IMG/VR virus record: IMGVR_UViG_3300021093_000391
Location: 1-22,440 of that record
Length of the DNA stretch: 22,440 nucleotides
From: a virus
Reading direction: 5' to 3' (one strand)
Positions 13,356 through 22,257 of the stretch are shown here, piece after piece. Each line of letters begins with the position of its first letter. Positions within the stretch are counted from its first letter, which is position 1. Below the pieces are notes generated by a model. The model had not been told where the DNA came from, searched no databases, and saw only the letters and a list, made by a program, of their open reading frames with translations. The translations under genes and the position numbers were made by a program.

Positions 13356-13832
13356 CTATGAATTTAAATTATATTCTATGCCAAGATCATTTAAAAATCT
13401 TTCTGGATTAAATCTCCAATTATCTTTAGCAAAAACAGTCATTATATCAATACACAATTTATTATAAACCTTTTTATCTATAGAATCTTTTACTCCAAAA
13501 AGTATTTTTTGAATATCATAATAGTCTTTTCTAACAAAAGTACATTCTCCAGCCTGATCTCTTTTTAATATTTTTTGATTTACTATTCCTGAAGGTTCAT
13601 ATAAAGTTACAGTTAAAAAATTTTTTGCAAAACCCCAGTCAGTATATTTATTGTATGCGCTAGAAGCATCAATAGCATTGCTGTAATATAAAATACTTCT
13701 TGCTGGTTCTTCACCATCTCTTGCAATAGTTAACATGTAAACATTTTGTGTTTTTTCATTAACGCGTTTTACATAGTCATCTACTAAAATTTTATGGTCT
13801 GGTTTTAATTCTGATTTGATGTTTGTCAACAT
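13356..13832 (-). CDS. Protein of unknown function, last gene of oxygenase operon
   Basis: A 158-aa protein that I do not recognise. It has an N-terminal strand/helix region (KILVDDYVKRVNEKTQNVYM, ARDGEEPARSILYYSNAIDA), then YTDWGFAKNFLTVTLYEPSG, QKILKRDQAGECTFVRKDYY, and a helical C-terminus ending NPERFLNDLGIEYNLNS. There are two cysteines, far apart, with no obvious metal site and no signal peptide. It begins 5 nt after the last oxygenase gene and is followed by the nrdJ promoter, so it belongs to the oxygenase transcript rather than to nrdJ. Its single domain and lack of low complexity suggest an intracellular factor. Confidence 0.6.
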   Translation of the reverse strand: MLTNIKSELKPDHKILVDDYVKRVNEKTQNVYMLTIARDGEEPARSILYYSNAIDASSAYNKYTDWGFAKNFLTVTLYEPSGIVNQKILKRDQAGECTFVRKDYYDIQKILFGVKDSIDKKVYNKLCIDIMTVFAKDNWRFNPERFLNDLGIEYNLNS

Positions 13833-13837
13833 AATAA

Positions 13838-14539
13838 CTACATCATACTAGATTTATTGAATTCCATATTGTTATGAATCCAATGTCCTGGAACCATGTA
13901 TTTTACACCACTTTTAACTAAGTGTGCTGTGTGATGATATGGTGCTGACGAAGGAAATATAATAATACTTCCTTTTGTTGGTTTAACTCCAAAATCAATT
14001 GTTTTATCCTGAAATGCTTTTTCATAATCTAAATCTGGATTTTGTTTTTGCAAAATACCATCATAATCAGACATAGTAAAAGATATTTCTCCACCTTCAC
14101 AGTCATCATTTAAATACATAACTAAAGAATATCTCAATGTTTTATCACCATCTAGTTGATCAAAATGTGGTCCCATTCCCATTCCAGTATTATATATTTT
14201 TATATTAAATGATGGAAATAAATTTGGTTCATCATAATCGTTTTGACTTACGGCATAATCTTTACAAACATCATATAAAGATTTTGTAATTAAATCATAA
14301 ATAAATTGCATTTTTTCTTTATATGGATCTTCCATATTATTAATTGATGCCAAATCAAATGATTTTGTTTTTCCATAAATAAAATCTTTGTTGTTTGAAG
14401 AAGTCCAAACATCCCATGATTCTTTATTGTTGTTTTTATCCAGTTCTTCTATTTCTGCAAGAGTTGACATAAGTTTATCTAAGTTTTCAATTGCATCTTC
14501 ATAATAATAAACCTTTTCTTCTAAAATATGCTTCTTCAT
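13838..14539 (-). CDS. 2OG-Fe(II) oxygenase, prolyl-4-hydroxylase type (copy 6)
   Basis: A 233-aa dioxygenase expected to use O2, 2-oxoglutarate and Fe(II) to hydroxylate a substrate that is not known. The iron ligands are H125-F-D127 in GMGPHFDQLDGD and H203 in PYHHTAHLVKSGVKY, with K213 ten residues on as the 2OG-binding base. The signature YLNDDCEGGEISF (142-154) matches the five sister genes. It differs from them by an insert at about 155-180 (MSDYDGILQKQNPDLDYEKA) between the strands of the double-stranded beta-helix. The start overlaps the upstream stop by 4 nt, with AGGAG 8 nt upstream. The exact choice of H203 over H202 or H206 rests on the +10 spacing. Confidence 0.85.
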   Translation of the reverse strand: MKKHILEEKVYYYEDAIENLDKLMSTLAEIEELDKNNNKESWDVWTSSNNKDFIYGKTKSFDLASINNMEDPYKEKMQFIYDLITKSLYDVCKDYAVSQNDYDEPNLFPSFNIKIYNTGMGMGPHFDQLDGDKTLRYSLVMYLNDDCEGGEISFTMSDYDGILQKQNPDLDYEKAFQDKTIDFGVKPTKGSIIIFPSSAPYHHTAHLVKSGVKYMVPGHWIHNNMEFNKSSMM

Positions 14540-15288
14540 TTGTCTAACTCCTCAATTCTATACTTATTTCCTTTTTGGTCTAACTTGTAACCTTCTTTAA
14601 TCATATCTTGCCATTCTGCTTTTTCTTTTGCTTGATATTCTCTAACCTTTTTGATTTCTTCTTCCCACTGTTTTCTTAACTCTTCTGGATAATCTGACTC
14701 TTCTCTGTCATCCCAAAAAGACCCTAAAGTATATCTAACACCTTTTGTGATAAGAGTAACCTCATGCATATTTTCAAAACCTCCAGCAAACGCAGCCAAA
14801 AGACCAGTTTTTGGTTTTACAGAAATATTATTCTTTGTAAAATTTAATACACCACCATCAAAATCTTCATTTAAATAAATGAAAGCAGCATATCTACTTC
14901 TTTCAAATGCTGATGGATTTCCTTGTTCATCAGTGTTGTCTGAATGTGCTCTTGCAAAAGCACCTGGCTCCCATTTTTGTGTATGATATCCAATTTGAAC
15001 AACAGATTGTGGATCTATGTCTTCAATTGAGGCGACTGCTTCTATAATTTTATTTTTTACATCTGAAAAAAACGTTGGTGATAATCCAAACTCTTCTAGC
15101 GCTGGATCATTATCTTGAGGCAAAACAGATGAATATGATTCATAAAAAGAAATTGGTGTCCAAGATATTGTATTATTTTCAACTGTTTTTTCTAAAACTT
15201 TAATAACCGCAGCAGATTCCTCTTCTGTTAAAAAATTTTTATATACAACTATATCTTTTGACAGTCTTTCTTTGTTATCTAAATTCAT
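14536..15288 (-). CDS. 2OG-Fe(II) oxygenase, prolyl-4-hydroxylase type (copy 5)
   Basis: A 250-aa dioxygenase. Iron ligands H115-S-D117 (FARAHSDNTDEQ) and H175 (ENMHEVTLITKGVRY) with R185 at +10. The common signature appears as YLNEDFDGGVLNF, with Val replacing the usual Glu after GG, the only such change among the six. The last 55 residues are a charged Lys/Glu-rich helix (PEELRKQWEEEIKKVREYQA and on) that the sisters lack and that may mediate oligomerisation or partner binding. It overlaps its neighbours by 4 nt on both sides, so it is co-translated within the second oxygenase operon. The substrate is unknown. Confidence 0.87.
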   Translation of the reverse strand: MNLDNKERLSKDIVVYKNFLTEEESAAVIKVLEKTVENNTISWTPISFYESYSSVLPQDNDPALEEFGLSPTFFSDVKNKIIEAVASIEDIDPQSVVQIGYHTQKWEPGAFARAHSDNTDEQGNPSAFERSRYAAFIYLNEDFDGGVLNFTKNNISVKPKTGLLAAFAGGFENMHEVTLITKGVRYTLGSFWDDREESDYPEELRKQWEEEIKKVREYQAKEKAEWQDMIKEGYKLDQKGNKYRIEELDK

Positions 15289-16160
15289 TTTATTCTTACC
15301 CCATCTATAACTTTATTTTTTTGTGGATTTTTTTGTCTAAACTCTTCCATTATATCATCCTGCATTGATGCCCAAACATCTTTTCCAAACTTTGTTTCAT
15401 TTTCAAACCACTCATTATCTCCCTCTTCATATTTTACTAAATACATTCTAGAAAGATACTTATGTCCATTTTTTGCAGGAAGAACTCCATGCAAATATAC
15501 ATCTCCATCTTTTCTTAAAACATCTGGATGACCAGATGGGAAAACTAATATATCGCCAATTTCTGGTTTATACATATATAGTTCTTTTCCTATTGCAAAA
15601 TCAATTTCTCCACCATCGTAGTCATCATTAAAATATGTAAGAACGGTTATTGCAAACTTATAACCTGGACTTACAATAGGCTCTCTAATAAAATCAGAAT
15701 GATATGACATAGCCAGAGGAATATCTAAAATAACTTTAGAATAGTCATGATATCTTACAATTGATGGACCATACAACTTCCACCTTGGAACAGTTTGGCC
15801 ATGCATATCAACAACAGTTTCATTAAAATCAACATTAACGCCAGTGCGTGATATGTAATCTTTTATAACAAAATTAAAGTTATTAATTAATTCTACAACA
15901 ACAGTTTTTTGATTATTTTCTTTTTCTGTTGACACATTTACATTATCAAGAAATTCAACATTAAGACTTGAATCTAATAAAGTTGGATTTAAATACTCTC
16001 CAAACCTTGACCATTGTGACCAGTAATTAAAAAATCTATCTGGATCTTCATTAGTAGATTCTTTTAATGCTTCATAATTTTTATTTGCATCTTTAAATAA
16101 ATTTTTATAAACAATAATGTTTGGATACAATTCAATTAAATCTTTATATAATTCTGTCAT
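15285..16160 (-). CDS. 2OG-Fe(II) oxygenase, prolyl-4-hydroxylase type (copy 4)
   Basis: At 291 aa it is the longest of the six. Iron ligands H154-S-D156 (MSYHSDFIRE) and H224 (VYLHGVLPAKNGHKY) with K234 at +10. The signature is YFNDDYDGGEIDF, followed by YKPEIGDILVFPSGHPDVL. Residues 110-150 (VDMHGQTVPRWKLYGPSIVR and on) add a segment before the first ligand. The C-terminal 50 residues are charged (DDIMEEFRQKNPQKNK). Overlaps of 4 nt (ATGA) join it to both neighbours. The broad shape resembles phage P4Hc-like proteins. The substrate could be protein, nucleotide or lipid; nothing in the sequence decides. Confidence 0.87.
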   Translation of the reverse strand: MTELYKDLIELYPNIIVYKNLFKDANKNYEALKESTNEDPDRFFNYWSQWSRFGEYLNPTLLDSSLNVEFLDNVNVSTEKENNQKTVVVELINNFNFVIKDYISRTGVNVDFNETVVDMHGQTVPRWKLYGPSIVRYHDYSKVILDIPLAMSYHSDFIREPIVSPGYKFAITVLTYFNDDYDGGEIDFAIGKELYMYKPEIGDILVFPSGHPDVLRKDGDVYLHGVLPAKNGHKYLSRMYLVKYEEGDNEWFENETKFGKDVWASMQDDIMEEFRQKNPQKNKVIDGVRIK

Positions 16161-16825
16161 GGCTTTTTATCTCCAGTATGCTCTAGAATTGTCCAAAAAA
16201 ACGGACAGGTATACCTAATTCCTTCTTCGACCTTTGTTACTCCATGTATATAATTTTTATCTCCTGGGAAAAAATAAGCAGCACCCCTTTTTGGTTTAAT
16301 TTGAATATCTTGTAATGGAAAATATAATTCTCCCCCAACATAGTCGTCATTTAAATAAAATAAACTAGCAATATCATAATGTGGAAAATCATTTGGTTTT
16401 CCAGCATCTGGCCCATCATGTAGTTCTTTATCTGCATGTGGGTGTTGGAATTGTCCTGGAAGCCATTTTACAATAGCCTTGCCTGTTGGTTCAATAACTA
16501 CATTAAAAAATTTTTCAATTTCAATTTTTAATCTTTGAAATAAATTTTCTAATATGATAGAAATTTGTGGATCATTTTTATCTAATGTTGGTCCAGTTGC
16601 AACACGGTCTTTCCAGTAGTCTGCATCATAAATTACAGTACCGTTTTCATTTTTATGTGTTTCTGTAATGTCCCAAATTTTTATAGATTTTGCTGCACTT
16701 TCAAGATATTCAATTTCTTCTGTAGTCATAAAATTTTCTAATTCAACAATCATAGATTTATCGTGTCCAAAAAATCCTGATGGAGTTATTGATTGTTTTT
16801 TAAATGGGTTAGTATTATTAATCAT
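16157..16825 (-). CDS. 2OG-Fe(II) oxygenase, prolyl-4-hydroxylase type (copy 3)
   Basis: A 222-aa dioxygenase, first gene of the second oxygenase operon. Iron ligands H130-A-D132 (FQHPHADKELHD) and H194 (NYIHGVTKVEEGIRY) with R204 at +10. Signature YLNDDYVGGELYF, then IKPKRGAAYFFPGDKNY. The segment between D132 and the signature carries a loop (GPDAGKPNDFPHYD) that may line the active site. No ribosome-binding site precedes the ATG. Instead an extended -10 ends 6 nt upstream, so a leaderless transcript is likely. The start is supported by that spacing and by the N-terminus not being conserved with its sisters. Confidence 0.87.
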   Translation of the reverse strand: MINNTNPFKKQSITPSGFFGHDKSMIVELENFMTTEEIEYLESAAKSIKIWDITETHKNENGTVIYDADYWKDRVATGPTLDKNDPQISIILENLFQRLKIEIEKFFNVVIEPTGKAIVKWLPGQFQHPHADKELHDGPDAGKPNDFPHYDIASLFYLNDDYVGGELYFPLQDIQIKPKRGAAYFFPGDKNYIHGVTKVEEGIRYTCPFFWTILEHTGDKKP

Positions 16826-16845: not shown

Positions 16846-17580
16846 TTACTCATAAGTTCTTGGCTCCCATACATTTTTTTTATAAACTCCACCGTCTGGA
16901 ACTCTATAAATTTTAGCATTTTTTTGATACTCTTTTTTTATTTTATTTTGATCTGGCTCTTCAAGTATTTCTGAAATCCAATTTTCTCTTTTAAAAGGAA
17001 TTAACTGAATGTATGATGTTCCTGCTGGTATAATACCTGTAAATCCTTTTCGTATAAAAAATGGATATGATCCTGGTAAATGCACTTTATCTAAATCAAT
17101 AATGCCACTTGTAGTTAAAAATGGTAATTCATATCTATTAAATGGTGGTGCATAAATTGCACTATATCCGCCTGGAAGGATAATTTCCCAATCTCCAAAC
17201 CAAGAAAAATGATCTTCATAATACCCCTCTGGATGCATAAACTGTGGCATAGAAGGTCTTTTTTCTACAAATGATGCATATTTTGAGTTGTGAACTTTTA
17301 CATCAATTTTATTATCTTTGTTTAAAAAAAATTCAATATCGCATGGGGTATTTAAAGAATATCCAGTAGCCATAATGTCAAATATTGCTGGACATGCTTT
17401 CCAGGTTGGAATTTTTCCTTTATCTGGACCAATAATAAAATCATTATTAAAATCTTTTGCATATCTATCTGCTTTTCTATACCAGTCTGGTATTGATTTA
17501 GCAATTGGTTTTGGCACAGACTTACTTTCTGATGATAGCCATGCTCTTGCAGCCTTAAAAATAATTTTATGTTTGTCCAT
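16846..17580 (-). CDS. DUF6065-like protein of unknown function (copy B)
   Basis: About 244 aa. I start it at ATG 17580 because AAAGGG lies a few bases upstream; an in-frame ATG at 17601 has no ribosome-binding site and overlaps the previous gene more. Residues 60-90 (TWKACPAIFDIMATGYSLNT, then CDIEFFLNKD) and 152-201 (PFLTTSGIIDLDKVHLPGSY, then IIPAGTSYIQLIPFKRENW) parallel blocks in the preceding gene, so the two are diverged paralogues. The sequence is rich in Trp, Tyr and Pro, with many strands and no HxD motif, signal peptide or membrane segment. It resembles what I recall of the DUF6065 family; this naming is uncertain. It is co-transcribed with two oxygenases and may be a partner or substrate-side protein. 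Confidence 0.65.
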   Translation of the reverse strand: MDKHKIIFKAARAWLSSESKSVPKPIAKSIPDWYRKADRYAKDFNNDFIIGPDKGKIPTWKACPAIFDIMATGYSLNTPCDIEFFLNKDNKIDVKVHNSKYASFVEKRPSMPQFMHPEGYYEDHFSWFGDWEIILPGGYSAIYAPPFNRYELPFLTTSGIIDLDKVHLPGSYPFFIRKGFTGIIPAGTSYIQLIPFKRENWISEILEEPDQNKIKKEYQKNAKIYRVPDGGVYKKNVWEPRTYE

Positions 17581-18289
17581 TATTACCCTTTGTATAATCA
17601 TTAAAACTTAATTTTAAACTTTTAACTTCATGGTCTCCAAGTTTATTGCCATTATGATCGACACCATCTCTGTAAAAGTTAGTCCACTTATCTGTCATTA
17701 TTTTTTCTTGTGATGACATCCCATAATCTTGTAAAAATTTATAATGATCTTGGCCAAATTGTGCATCATATAAATTAACAGATACATCTTGCAAATCTTT
17801 TAATGAAATAGGAATAATAGATGCAATTGGGGTGTTTGCTGGTATAGTAATTTCTTTATTAGCCAAAGTTACTCTCCATGCCGCTGGGATTGGTGCCTTT
17901 AATATTGATGGATTGATAATTGTTGTAAAACAATTTGTACCTTCAATAAATTGATTTGGAACTGGCATTAACATTATGCTTATATCACTATCTGATCTTA
18001 AATATAAATTAGTATCAAAACTTATAGTAGCATTTGCTCTATTTAAATTGACAAATTTATTGCCATTGATAATTTTAATATGGTCAGAAAATGTATCTGA
18101 AACTCCATCCCAAATAAACGTAATGTCTTCTGGAAATGAAAAAGTCCATCCAATTAAATTGGCAGAAGAAACTGGAAAACATCTATATGCATGCTTTCCG
18201 TCTGTATTTTCCATCCACTCTCTTTTCATTGTCAACGGATGAAAATTAATCAATGATCCTTTTTCTTTATAAAAATCTAAAGTAACCAC
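17567..18289 (-). CDS. DUF6065-like protein of unknown function (copy A)
   Basis: A 240-aa protein with a GTG start that overlaps the upstream stop by one base (TAGTG) and has GGAG 4 nt upstream, supporting this start. Residues 35-61 (AYRCFPVSSANLIGWTFSFP, then EDITFIWDG) and 119-165 (NCFTTIINPSILKAPIPAAW, then ITIPANTPIASIIPISLKDL) are the blocks shared with copy B. The IPANTPIASIIPI segment suggests a beta-barrel or jelly-roll edge strand. Residues 175-210 are helical and charged. It has no known catalytic motif. Its place in the middle of four overlapping genes with two oxygenases ties its role to theirs, but the role is unknown. Confidence 0.65.
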   Translation of the reverse strand: MVTLDFYKEKGSLINFHPLTMKREWMENTDGKHAYRCFPVSSANLIGWTFSFPEDITFIWDGVSDTFSDHIKIINGNKFVNLNRANATISFDTNLYLRSDSDISIMLMPVPNQFIEGTNCFTTIINPSILKAPIPAAWRVTLANKEITIPANTPIASIIPISLKDLQDVSVNLYDAQFGQDHYKFLQDYGMSSQEKIMTDKWTNFYRDGVDHNGNKLGDHEVKSLKLSFNDYTKGNNGQT

Positions 18290-18978
18290 TAGTCTCCAGT
18301 TTCTTGAAAAAACTTTGGATTATGAAATTTTGAACTGTAGTCAAGCATTGTTACTATAGAATATTTAGTACCAGATGTGACTGGCATGGCTCTATGTGGA
18401 TACATAAAATTAGATGGAAATACAAAAAGATCTCCAGCCTTAGCCTTTATATTTAAATTTTGCAGCCTAAAAGTAAGTTCTCCACCTTCATAATCATCAT
18501 TTGGATAGCCTACTAATGAAACAACACAGTTATATGAAAATCCGTGATCATGATGCTCCATAAAATGTTGTCCTGGACCATACTTAACAAAATTCATTGC
18601 CTCCCAATACTTTAATTCTCCTATATGAAAACTATTGCAATAATGATCAACAACTGGTTTTGACTTATCATAAACATCTTGCCAAAGATTTTGTAACAGT
18701 AATGATTCATTAGACTTGTCGTGCTCAATATCAGTTTTTTTAAATTTAAAGTCTACACAATCTCTGTACTCTGGCATTCTTTGTTGATATCCAACAAGCG
18801 CTTCTCTCCATTGATATCTAGCTGTTTTATCACTAGACACAACTGATTCTAATCTATTTATAATATCAATATCTTTAGTTAAAACATCATGATATACAAA
18901 AATTCCACTACCAAGATCTTCATAAGAAGACCAAGTCTGTCCTGGATAAAAGTGATTTAAATTAGTAACTGGTTCCAT
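18289..18978 (-). CDS. 2OG-Fe(II) oxygenase, prolyl-4-hydroxylase type (copy 2)
   Basis: A 229-aa dioxygenase closely related to copy 1. Iron ligands H142-H-D144 (HFMEHHDHGFSYN) and H195 (FMYPHRAMPVTSGTKY) with K205 at +10. The signature is YPNDDYEGGELTF, then IKAKAGDLFVFPSNF. The region before it, EAMNFVKYGPGQHF, aligns with EAFNFVKYSKDEYF of copy 1, as do DCVDFKFKK and the C-terminal YSIVTMLDY. It overlaps copy 1 by 17 nt and has AAGGAG upstream of the ATG. The two genes look like a tandem duplication that then diverged. Confidence 0.9.
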   Translation of the reverse strand: MEPVTNLNHFYPGQTWSSYEDLGSGIFVYHDVLTKDIDIINRLESVVSSDKTARYQWREALVGYQQRMPEYRDCVDFKFKKTDIEHDKSNESLLLQNLWQDVYDKSKPVVDHYCNSFHIGELKYWEAMNFVKYGPGQHFMEHHDHGFSYNCVVSLVGYPNDDYEGGELTFRLQNLNIKAKAGDLFVFPSNFMYPHRAMPVTSGTKYSIVTMLDYSSKFHNPKFFQETGD

Positions 18979-19663
18979 TATTCTCCTTGTGATTGTTATC
19001 GTTATAATCTAACATAATTACAACAGAATACTTAATTCCTTCAATAATATTTTTTGATTCATGCTCATAAACAAAATTAGAAGGAAATATTGCAATGTCT
19101 CCTGCTTTTGGCTTAATTGATAAATTATGTCTGGTAAAATCTAATTCCCCGCCATCGTAATTATCATTTAAATATACTACTGCGGATATAGTACACGTGT
19201 AGTAAGGACCATGATCTACATGTGTTTTAAAGTATTCGTCTTTTGAATATTTAACAAAATTAAAAGCCTCTTTATAATTCATTTTTAAATGCCATAAAGA
19301 CTCGTAGTGTTGAAGGCATAGGTCAAGTTGTTTTTCTACAACTTCATGAATATCAAATAAATTTTGATTATACTCTTGATACTTACCTAAATGCTCTCGT
19401 TTATATTTAATATCAAAACAATTTCTAGCATTTAACTTATCTTCAATTGCATTAACTTTTGCACCATGCCATCTTAAAGTATTGTCTTTTTCAACTTCTG
19501 ACTCAAGTGTATTGATAATAAAGTCACACTGTTCTTTTGAAATTGCATTATTATAAAGATGAATTCCATAGTCTAAATTATTAGCAATAATATTGTTACC
19601 AATATTAATTGGCTCAAGCCTGTAATTAATTTTTTCTTCTCTTGGTAAGTTAAACCAGTCCAT
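18962..19663 (-). CDS. 2OG-Fe(II) oxygenase, prolyl-4-hydroxylase type (copy 1)
   Basis: A 233-aa dioxygenase, first gene of the first oxygenase operon. Iron ligands H148-V-D150 (YFKTHVDHGPYY) and H201 (FVYEHESKNIIEGIKY) with K211 at +10, the same spacing as H483 to K493 of human collagen prolyl 4-hydroxylase. Signature YLNDNYDGGELDF, then IKPKAGDIAIFPSNF. The promoter at 19687 and AAGGAG 7 nt before the ATG serve it. It is directly downstream of the fibronectin-III protein with the Phe/Pro tail. A peptidyl-proline substrate is a reasonable hypothesis, but related enzymes also act on other amino acids and small molecules. Confidence 0.9.
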   Translation of the reverse strand: MDWFNLPREEKINYRLEPINIGNNIIANNLDYGIHLYNNAISKEQCDFIINTLESEVEKDNTLRWHGAKVNAIEDKLNARNCFDIKYKREHLGKYQEYNQNLFDIHEVVEKQLDLCLQHYESLWHLKMNYKEAFNFVKYSKDEYFKTHVDHGPYYTCTISAVVYLNDNYDGGELDFTRHNLSIKPKAGDIAIFPSNFVYEHESKNIIEGIKYSVVIMLDYNDNNHKENNGTSY

Positions 19664-19686
19664 AAAACTCCTTGTGTCTATATTTA

Positions 19687-19695
19687 ATTATAGCA
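19687..19695 (-). promoter_or_regulatory. Extended -10 promoter of first oxygenase operon (TGCTATAAT)
   Basis: TGCTATAAT on the minus strand in the 46-nt gap after the fibronectin-III gene, 23 nt upstream of the ATG at 19663, with a ribosome-binding site in between. It should drive the four overlapping genes down to 16846. Confidence 0.5.
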
Positions 19696-19709
19696 CAACA
19701 AGTTTTGTA

Positions 19710-20528
19710 TTAATCTCTAAAGAATCCAAAGTATGGCGGGAAGAACGGTGGGAAGAACGGTGGGAAGAACGGGAAGAATGGAGGAAAGAATGGAAATGAT
19801 GGCGGGAAGAACGGTGGGAAGAACGGTGGGAAGAACGGGAAGAACGGTGGAAAGAACGGAAAGAATGGTGGAAAGAATGGTTGAGTAGTAACAGAGTTAG
19901 AAGCAGCGCTTTCAGCGGAAGAACCATTAGCATTAATTGCTACAACTTTATAAGTTTGTGATGTTCCTGCTGTTTCATTTACCGTTAATGGTGATGTTGC
20001 ATTAGTATAAGACGGACCATCGCTAGAAATAACAGTAAAACTTGTTATTGATTTTCCACCAGTTGCTGCTGGAGCAGACCAGGTTACAACGTCTTGGTTT
20101 GAATTAGCAGATGAAGCAGATGGTGCTGCTGGTGCGTTTGGAACAGTTGTGGCAGTTACCGAAGAAGAGGTTGTTCCACTAGCAGTTCCTACTGCATTTT
20201 TTGATTTTACTGTAAATGTATAAGATGTATTTGCTGCAAGACCTTCAAATGTGTATGATGTAGATGAAGATCCAGTATCATGTGTATATGTAGAAGGTGT
20301 TGTTGTAATAACATAAGATGTTGCTGCTGGAGATGTTCCTGGTAATGTCCAAGAAAGGCTTACTGCTCCACCAGTTCCAGAAGCAGATGCTGCTGAGGTG
20401 GTATTTGCTGTAGCAAGGTATGGACGATTTGTTCCAACATCTGTTGCACTTAAAGAAGTAACATTTTCTGGTTCTAAAAAGTTGTCTTGTGCTGAAGACT
20501 TAATACCTCTTCTTTTACTAGTTGCCAT
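19710..20528 (-). CDS. Fibronectin-III virion protein with Phe/Pro-only C-terminal tail
   Basis: A 272-aa protein. Residues about 43-128 and 133-215 are two fibronectin type III modules (VSLSWTLPGTSPAATSYVIT, TSYTFTVKSKNAVGTAS; VVTWSAPAATGGKSITSFTV, QTYKVVAINANGSS). Residues 217-269 consist almost wholly of FFPP and FFP units (exceptions S244, Y266, G268), and the protein ends GFFRD. Such modules on phage surfaces are thought to bind carbohydrates weakly. The tail is extremely hydrophobic yet Pro-broken, so it is not a normal membrane helix. It could be an anchoring or aggregation segment, or an enzyme target. The N-terminus has no signal peptide. The ribosome-binding site GGAG and an extended -10 lie upstream. 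The tract is built from 9- and 12-nt repeats. Confidence 0.8.
   Translation of the reverse strand: MATSKRRGIKSSAQDNFLEPENVTSLSATDVGTNRPYLATANTTSAASASGTGGAVSLSWTLPGTSPAATSYVITTTPSTYTHDTGSSSTSYTFEGLAANTSYTFTVKSKNAVGTASGTTSSSVTATTVPNAPAAPSASSANSNQDVVTWSAPAATGGKSITSFTVISSDGPSYTNATSPLTVNETAGTSQTYKVVAINANGSSAESAASNSVTTQPFFPPFFPFFPPFFPFFPPFFPPFFPPSFPFFPPFFPFFPPFFPPFFPPYFGFFRD
19734..19844 (-). repeat. 66-nt tandem duplication in the Phe/Pro tail coding region
   Basis: The 45 nt at 19734-19778 recur exactly at 19800-19844, an offset of 66 nt (22 codons). Inside, the plus strand is purine-rich, built of GGTGGGAAGAAC and GGGAAGAAC units. Each copy has four GGG runs with loops of 9, 9 and 6 nt. The tract continues less regularly to about 19880. 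Confidence 0.85.
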
Positions 20529-20559: not shown

Positions 20560-22257
20560 TTATGCTGATAGGTCGCCCATTACGATCCATGTATCTGTTG
20601 CTCTCTTGAAAAGAGTTGCAGATGAATATTGAGCACGTAATTTCAAACCAGGTGTAGCATTTACAGTTACTCCTGCTGCGCCAGCAACAGTTACCTGTCC
20701 AGCACCAGTTTGAATAATATCAATTGATGTTCCTACTGGATATGCTGTTGTTGAGTTTGCTGGAATTGTTAGTGTAATTGCTGATGATGAACCTAGTTCA
20801 AGCATAGTATCTCTTAATGTTAATCCACCAGTTGATAGATTATAAGATGCTGATGCTGTATTAATTGTAGTTCTTGAAGGTACGCCTTCTTTTGTTTGTG
20901 TACCGTCTGTAAAAGCAATTCCATCTGCTGCTACAGTTACTGTACCAGTAAATGTTGGGGAAGCAAGTGGAGCCTTTGTTGCAATACTATTTGTAACCGT
21001 AGTAGAGAAGTTTGCATCATCACCAAGTGCTTCAGCCAATTCATTAAGAGTGTCTAATGCTCCAGGTGCTGAAGCGATAACATTGTCTACTGCAGTTTTA
21101 ACGAATGCGGTTGTAGCAATTTGAGTTGTATTAGTATTGGCATCAGCGGTAGGTGCTGTTGGTGTGCCAGTTAAGGCTGGTGAGGCAAGAGGCGCATAAG
21201 TTGAAGCGGCAGATGCCGAAGCCAACTTGTCATCAAGTTGTGTTTGAATAGCAGAGGTTACTCCATTTACATATCCAATTTCAGTTGAAGATACGTCACC
21301 TATTGATGTAGTTGAAGGAAGAACAACTGTACCTGTAAAAGTTGGATCTGCAGATGGTGATTTTGCATCAAGTTGTGTTTGAATGGCAGAGGTTACACCA
21401 TTAACATATGAAAGTTCAGTCTCAGATACGTCTCCGATTGAAGTTGTTGAAGGAAGCACTACGTTTCCAGTAAAGGTAGGGCTTGCAGCAGGTGCTTTTG
21501 TATCAATTTGTGTTTGAATTGCAGAAGTAACACCGTTAACATATCCAATTTCTGCTGATGAAACATCACCTATTGATGTAGTAGAAGGAAGTACGACGGT
21601 TCCAGTAAATGTAGGACTTGCAGTAGGTGCCTTCGCAGAAACATCTGTTGTAATATTACTAAATTGTGTTTGAATTGCTGAAGTTACTCCACTAAGATAT
21701 CCAAGTTCTGTTGCAGTTGCTCCAGTATCACTAAGATTTCCAGTTGTTATTACCGTTCCAGTTGCATTCGGTAAAGTAACAAATCTATCAGCAGTTGGAT
21801 CAACAACATTAAGGGTTGTCTCATATGCATCTGCTGTAGATCCTTCAAAAGTAATTGAAGTTGTAAGATTAATTGTTGTTGAATCTACTGTTGTAGTGGT
21901 TCCTTGTACCGTTAAATTACCAGAAACTGTTACGTTACCGCTGCCATCTGCAAGAACTACTGTTCCTGTAGAATTTGGAAGTGTAATTGTACGATCTGCT
22001 GTAGGATCTGCAACTGTAAGTGTTGTTTCGTATGCGTCTGAAGTAGCACCTTCGAAAGTAATGCTTGAACCAAATGCTGGGTTTACTGTGGAGGATTGAT
22101 CAATAAAGTAGTCAAGGTCTGCCCAGTGATTAGTACCATCACCAATCTTAAATTTATTGGTATCAGACTCCCATCCCATTTCACCTGCATTTAAAATAGG
22201 ATTTGCGCTTGTCCATTGGGCTGCAGTGCCTCTCCGTTGCTGCATTCTTGTTGCCAT
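20560..22257 (-). CDS. Tail-fibre-like protein with tandem repeats
   Basis: A 565-aa protein. Residues 1-51 (MQQRRGTAAQWTSANPILNA..., then FKIGDGTNHWADLDYF) are the common N-terminal module of phage fibre proteins that attaches to the virion. Residues 65-112 and 134-175 are two copies of an ITFEGxTxDAYETTL...DPTADR...TLPNxTGTV module. Residues 213-347 are three copies of a 45-residue repeat (SPTFTGTVVLPSTTSIGDVS, then GYVNGVTSAIQTQLDxK), with partial copies on either side. The rest ends in a compact C-terminal domain (LRAQYSSATLFKRATDTWIV). Such repeats form trimeric beta-helical and coiled-coil shafts. It probably carries or extends a receptor-binding tip. AGGAGG precedes the ATG and an extended -10 lies 35 nt upstream. 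Confidence 0.82.
   Translation of the reverse strand: MATRMQQRRGTAAQWTSANPILNAGEMGWESDTNKFKIGDGTNHWADLDYFIDQSSTVNPAFGSSITFEGATSDAYETTLTVADPTADRTITLPNSTGTVVLADGSGNVTVSGNLTVQGTTTTVDSTTINLTTSITFEGSTADAYETTLNVVDPTADRFVTLPNATGTVITTGNLSDTGATATELGYLSGVTSAIQTQFSNITTDVSAKAPTASPTFTGTVVLPSTTSIGDVSSAEIGYVNGVTSAIQTQIDTKAPAASPTFTGNVVLPSTTSIGDVSETELSYVNGVTSAIQTQLDAKSPSADPTFTGTVVLPSTTSIGDVSSTEIGYVNGVTSAIQTQLDDKLASASAASTYAPLASPALTGTPTAPTADANTNTTQIATTAFVKTAVDNVIASAPGALDTLNELAEALGDDANFSTTVTNSIATKAPLASPTFTGTVTVAADGIAFTDGTQTKEGVPSRTTINTASASYNLSTGGLTLRDTMLELGSSSAITLTIPANSTTAYPVGTSIDIIQTGAGQVTVAGAAGVTVNATPGLKLRAQYSSATLFKRATDTWIVMGDLSA
21217..21621 (-). repeat. Three 135-nt repeats in the tail-fibre gene
   Basis: Three in-frame copies of a 45-codon unit (codons 213-257, 258-302, 303-347), each with PTFTGxVVLPSTTSIGDVS and a following (Y/S)VNGVTSAIQTQ(I/L)D segment. 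The DNA has drifted more than the protein, so selection on the repeat is likely. Confidence 0.85.

Follow-up and report, generated by a model that had tools for sequence, protein, structure and literature searches.

Viral use of prolyl 4-hydroxylase (P4H) "remains cryptic" according to a survey (PMC9301287), and the closest described case is the eukaryotic algal virus PBCV-1, for which a passage of that survey citing Eriksson et al. 1999 reports a P4H that accepts peptides as substrates, along with viral proteins that contain hydroxyproline. The present analysis concerns a 22,440-nucleotide stretch of viral DNA (IMG/VR record IMGVR_UViG_3300021093_000391, positions 1 to 22,440; referred to below as the window) in which the gene for a fibronectin type III (FN3) protein ending in a stalk of Phe and Pro (F/P) is followed on the same strand by a cluster of genes for 2-oxoglutarate (2OG)-Fe(II) oxygenases, the first two of which are designated ox1 and ox2. 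The best explanation of the gene content is that ox1 and ox2 hydroxylate prolines of the phage's own F/P stalk, and we consider this probable because phages with a differing stalk on a related tail protein do not have the neighboring enzymes. The resemblance to PBCV-1 lies in a virus-encoded P4H, vCPH (5c5t), with the same fold as ox1, and in a proline-rich repeat protein from the virus's own genome, the counterpart here being the F/P stalk next door to ox1, an arrangement also found in 104 of 111 FFP cassettes. The present system differs in belonging to a tailed phage, in its F/P stalks, in its several paralogous oxygenases within one conserved cassette, and in the co-switching of stalk and enzymes.

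Bacterial P4Hs, including those of B. anthracis (3itq, 5hv0, 5v7y) and Pseudomonas putida (with EF-Tu, 4iw3), share the fold of ox1 and are the closest solved sequences to its profile, but they are cellular enzymes whose known targets differ and whose genes are not linked to adhesin genes. In the protist Skp1 pathway the P4H PhyA acts first and is followed by a GlcNAc-transferase (PMC8724618); a P4H-type oxygenase gene likewise adjoins a PF11397 (GT60) glycosyltransferase gene in some relatives of the present locus, but GT60 genes occur in a minority of FFP phages. The 2OG-Fe(II) oxygenases of cyanophages (phrog_61, phrog_81) belong to the same superfamily and PHROGs, but their identity to ox1 is ≤32%, and no F/P stalk or cassette is annotated in two cyanophage regions. 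The papers searched contained no phage case and no mention of the FFP repeat (the literal string FFPPFFP included). If the proposal is correct, this would be, to our knowledge, the first instance of a phage hydroxylating a protein of its own tail. The initial annotation of the window had spoken of a new virion modification system, a claim that needs qualifying because PBCV-1, as described in the survey passage cited above, is a viral precedent.

The Stalk Protein and the Adjoining Oxygenases

The genes for the proposed substrate and the two candidate enzymes, together with the gene upstream of them, are as follows.

19710..20528, minus strand: FN3 and Phe/Pro stalk protein (272 aa), the proposed substrate; predicted to belong to a tail or adhesin
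19713..19883, minus strand: FFP/FFPP stalk, F or P at 51 of its 57 residues
18962..19663, minus strand: ox1, PF13640 2OG-Fe(II) oxygenase, HVD148/H201/K211; Pfam 5e-12, triad, AF2 fold
18289..18978, minus strand: ox2, PF13640 oxygenase, HHD142/H195/K205; Pfam 2e-13, triad
20560..22257, minus strand: tail-fiber-like protein with N-terminal Mtd_N (PF18454), upstream of the stalk gene

The stalk protein matches PF00041 (FN3) in two stretches (4e-12), and its C-terminal 57 residues form the tract QPFFPPFFPFFPP...FFPPYFGFFRD, which contains 12 FFP and is built from FFP and FFPP units; the tip beyond the stalk is merely YFGFFRD. The initial annotation had put this tail at about 50 residues. The tract is read in the coding frame, because third codon positions carry most of the variation among the F/P repeats and the pattern is retained as protein in relatives of the FN3 protein. 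Chance does not account for the F/P pattern, of which the window contains 7 occurrences as against 0 in the reversed reading. The stalk gene lies directly downstream of the Mtd_N tail-fiber-like gene, and its product has weak similarity to a tail-fiber-J PHROG and a weak match to phrog_31; this similarity and this position suggest that it may be a tail or virion protein.

The next two genes in the same direction, to which prolyl-4-hydroxylase-like active sites had been attributed, both belong to PF13640 and have full HxD...H...K triads. The cluster proved to be larger, with six genes in the window having candidate HxD...H...K/R triads, five of them PF13640 and one divergent (ox6). In ox1 the Fe and 2OG residues (H148/D150/H201/K211) are invariant across 38 aligned homologues, and a profile search gave B. 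anthracis P4H as the best match (3.5e-7), with weaker matches to lysyl hydroxylase LH3, prolyl 3-hydroxylase, and a PKHD-type enzyme. Fold comparison with AlphaFold2 and Foldseek covered ox1 alone among the cluster oxygenases; the model (mean pLDDT 84.5) gave PBCV-1 vCPH as the first match, followed by PHD2 and algal P4H-1, and the top 50 PDB matches listed, among them BaP4H and algal P4H with (Ser-Pro)5, carry descriptions as prolyl hydroxylases. The fold of the ox1 model is that of the peptidyl prolyl hydroxylases, an assignment that fixes fold and family rather than substrate.

Association of FFP Stalks with Oxygenases in Other Viral Records

PF13640 genes are present in all 79 IMG/VR records that contain relatives of the FN3 protein, some of these records being shorter than 5 kb. 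An unbiased scan by DNA pattern for FFPPFFPFFP recovered 117 distinct further viral records, and PF13640 was found in 107 of these as compared with 2 of 50 control viral records drawn by random 15-mer, so that the co-occurrence of stalk and oxygenase across phages, which the initial annotation had proposed as a check, is strongly borne out. In six of the ten FFP records without PF13640, less than 0.8 kb is visible beyond the FFP gene (none at all in three of them). The frequent occurrence of FFP tails without an oxygenase, which the initial annotation had named as a refutation, is not observed: an oxygenase is lacking in only four FFP loci for which 2 kb or more of downstream sequence is visible. 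In the reverse search, ox1 relatives have an FFP gene upstream wherever the contig is long enough. The ox1 loci that had appeared to be free of FFP were discarded as exceptions; a raw six-frame scan gave short stand-alone FFP frames in most of them, and the rest are truncated upstream. No fusion of an FFP protein with an oxygenase was found. The FFP pattern gave 7 matches in bacterial genomes, one of which (L092) lies on a phage contig that had been binned with Chitinophagaceae and has oxygenase genes beside the same stalk protein; the other six have no long F/P stalk and were set aside as apparently chance matches.

The association extends to the remainder of the cassette, whose genes in the window all share the strand of the stalk gene and are followed by a ribonucleotide reductase gene.

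17567..18289, minus strand: DUF6065 (PF19541) protein, cassette-conserved, predicted beta fold
16846..17601, minus strand: phrog_7084 family protein, cassette-conserved
16157..16825, minus strand: ox5, PF13640 oxygenase, triad with Arg (R204)
15285..16160, minus strand: ox6, divergent 2OG-oxygenase-like, HSD154/H224/K234; weak PHROG match, no Pfam match
14536..15288, minus strand: ox7, PF13640 oxygenase, HSD115/H175/R185
13838..14539, minus strand: ox8, PF13640 oxygenase, HFD125, distal H202/203, K213
13356..13832, minus strand: 158-aa protein without family assignment, in 23 of 111 cassettes

When the 111 distinct FFP genes with 8 kb of visible downstream sequence are considered, ox1 follows 104 of them, ox2 and DUF6065 102 each, phrog_7084 and ox5 97 each, ox7 90, and ox8 86, usually in one and the same order. 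The seven FFP genes without ox1 in this interval are those of L063, L082, L097, L173, L019, L033, and L047, and several of these records hold a second FFP gene with a cassette. The predicted model of DUF6065 has only weak dUTPase-like matches, and therefore no enzyme assignment is given to it; a search for it in cultured phages gave no match. Relatives of phrog_7084 in the haloarchaeal viruses HRTV-7 and HJTV-1 provided no functional clue.

Stalk Type and Oxygenases Switch Together

Two samples drawn independently of the stalk relate its composition to the presence of oxygenases. The first consists of 30 records longer than 25 kb, chosen for having the capsid protein of the window whatever their tail. 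Four of these are positive for the FFP pattern, each with 7-8 PF13640 matches, whereas 20 of the 26 others have none (Fisher p 0.008). Two of the six pattern-negative, PF13640-positive capsid relatives, G108 and G109, were FFP-negative by the DNA pattern, a classification that was rejected, their proteins having FFPFFP and PPPFPPPF stalks with ox1/ox2 59 bp downstream. Orthologues with a GAFGAF, GFTPF, APF/SPF, or similar stalk and no adjoining oxygenase are found in G127, G128, G122, G117, G110, G121, G126, G116, G112, and G113. The capsid-gene tree shows four changes in stalk type and four in oxygenase, with agreement in each of the three independent pairs that have support; independent-pair tests on the tree of the Hint domain had too few supported switches for significance.

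The second sample comprises 51 distinct proteins drawn by conserved Hint/FN3 peptides, blind to the stalk. An oxygenase lies within 2 kb in all 15 with FFP or PPPF stalks and is absent in 31 of the 36 others (p 5e-9, uncorrected for kinship), including those with GAFGAF, GFTPF, and SPF/APF stalks. The five exceptions (L552, L553, L554, L571, and L586, L553 being a near-copy of L552) have long proline-rich repeats of the TPTPTP/PTTTPAP or SPVGSPVG type. These sequence comparisons make a functional coupling of proline-rich stalk and oxygenases well supported. The interpretation in the initial annotation, which had linked stalk and enzymes from adjacency and active-site type, is as a whole supported in part: stalk composition and oxygenases switch together, and the predicted fold of ox1 fits.

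In four of the five exceptions (L552, L553, L554, and L586) a PF11397 glycosyltransferase gene directly adjoins or overlaps the single gene for a P4H-like enzyme. We take PF11397 to be the family of the Skp1 hydroxyproline GlcNAc-transferase. A gene of this family also separates the FFP gene from ox1 in the L071 cassette, and L245 has one at the corresponding position with respect to ox1; GT60 was found in 7 of 50 FFP records as compared with 0 of 50 random records. A GT60 search of cultured phages gave three distant matches, that in XacN1 having no annotated oxygenase beside it. The earlier idea that the stalk could become a site for sugars therefore draws support from an adjacent GT60-family gene in a minority of relatives and none from the window, where no such gene was seen among those scanned. 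As a separate observation, the five exceptional loci encode proteins composed of PASTA-like, (TP)n or (SPVG)n, and Hint parts, with a single P4H-like gene and, in all but L571, a GT60 gene; they possibly represent a parallel modification system.

Proposed Mechanism and Alternative Explanations

In the proposed mechanism, the Phe/Pro tract would be the stalk of a predicted tail adhesin, placed after FN3 modules (in relatives, PASTA or others) and before variable tips. Within an infected, aerobic host, ox1 and ox2 would act on the stalk prolines as P4H-type 2OG-Fe(II) oxygenases, before or during virion assembly, to give a more polar, stiffer polyproline-like rod; in the minority of relatives that encode one, a GT60-family enzyme could follow, with hydroxyproline or threonine as the acceptor for GlcNAc. 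That proline is the modified residue, that the protein is located in the virion, and that the stalk is altered physically are inferred. Further hydroxylations or helper roles may be suggested for ox5-ox8, DUF6065, and phrog_7084, but these are guesses. A more comprehensive model can be offered tentatively, with somewhat more doubt than confidence, in which interchangeable FFPP, PPPF, TPTP, and SPVG stalks are matured by several substrate-tuned prolyl hydroxylases, with DUF6065 and phrog_7084 as helpers and sometimes GT60, into a hydroxyproline-rich and, in some phages, glycosylated rod resembling plant extensins or collagen. Aquatic phages commonly carry 2OG-Fe(II) oxygenases, and the cassette names a concrete candidate substrate for them in one large, widespread group of uncultured phages. 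Hydroxylation of the stalk would tie infectivity to host oxygen, iron, and 2-oxoglutarate, and the cassettes would be a source of prokaryotic enzymes for F-P, T-P, and S-P repeats.

Several observations count against hydroxylation of the stalk by its neighbors. The FFP genes of L127, L139, L162, and L211 have no oxygenase over 2.1-4.3 kb of downstream sequence, and only 3-4 independent switches can be counted on the capsid-gene tree, too few for a significant sign test. Proline is as dense in (SPF)n and (APF)n stalks as in (FFP)n, yet these have no oxygenase, and therefore proline content alone is not the deciding factor. FFP fits no known P4H motif, six oxygenases exceed the needs of a simple P4H reaction, and GT60 also covers Ser/Thr-type transferases (PMC8724618). 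In addition, the stalk and oxygenase genes adjoin and may move as one block, and because of this physical linkage block transfer could yield the observed pattern without any substrate relation.

The last point is central to an alternative that we regard as unlikely but deserving of weight, in which the linked cassette acts on another substrate (something on the host surface, a different virion protein, a metabolite, or a nucleotide) and the FFP gene travels with it since the tail module is swapped as a block. The presence after the FFP gene of up to six paralogous oxygenases and two further families, in conserved order, is in keeping with such a cassette, and the cultured cyanophages, which carry their distant oxygenases amid many hypothetical genes in the two regions examined, indicate that other uses of these enzymes exist. 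However, the linkage to the stalk is retained where the N-terminal modules are non-homologous and the oxygenases divergent, the oxygenases track the stalk sequence within orthologous FN3-Hint proteins and do so for unrelated proline-rich stalks as well, and the predicted fold of ox1 is one of peptidyl prolyl hydroxylases. If, instead, the PF13640 genes were ordinary auxiliary metabolic genes, a common cargo of aquatic phages with no tie to the stalk, then the 236 phage records, mostly from Synechococcus and Prochlorococcus, that contain an oxygenase similar to ox1 would be readily understood, but the rarity of PF13640 in random viral records as compared with FFP records and its absence from most FFP-pattern-negative capsid relatives, together with the FFP/PPPF stalks of G108 and G109 among the six positives, make this explanation very improbable. 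Scarcely better placed is the suggestion that the Phe/Pro stalk functions without modification, forming a hydrophobic rod that sticks or self-associates, with the oxygenases tuning the tail elsewhere, for example in FN3 loops or Cys-rich tips. Phe-rich stalks can function without oxygenases, as the GAFGAF and GFTPF orthologues do; these same orthologues, however, have the same FN3 and Hint parts, which implicates the stalk rather than the other domains.

Architecture of Stalk Proteins in Relatives

The IMG/VR relatives of the FN3 protein have a conserved N terminus and FN3 region, then an FFP/FFPP stretch, and then one of three endings: a short tip, a Cys-rich cap, or a Hint-like domain, the last mostly scoring under the Pfam thresholds. 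Because of these C-terminal modules beyond it, the F/P tract is normally a stalk between modules. FFP stalks are not confined to FN3 proteins: some follow other N-terminal modules, PASTA-like ones among them, and some are embedded midway in large proteins. A search of cultured phages with the FN3 protein (low-complexity filter on) gave no match. Many of the tail proteins with F/P stalks (L010, L026, L049, L446, and others) end in the Hint/intein-like domain, some finishing in THNK or HNK, and this domain could cleave or ligate the end of the stalk. In others (L014, L022, L072, and L074 among them) the stalk tip has a variable cysteine-rich cap, in some cases knottin-like; these caps are possible receptor-binding tips. 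FFP tail proteins stand beside other tail genes in L127, L157, L162, L175, and L211; of these, L127, L162, and L211 have no oxygenase in 2-3 kb, and less than 0.8 kb is visible in L157 and L175; L211 carries a DXD glycosyltransferase (PF04488), and L157 has a similar-looking gene.

The FFP stalks also have a distinctive codon usage. TTC makes up 92% of their Phe codons, as opposed to 14% in neighboring cassette genes (21:7 versus 30:285 in the window alone), and CCG makes up 29% of their Pro codons, as opposed to 5% in the neighboring genes. This bias perhaps arises from avoidance of T-runs and slippage or from the translational demand of FF and PP.

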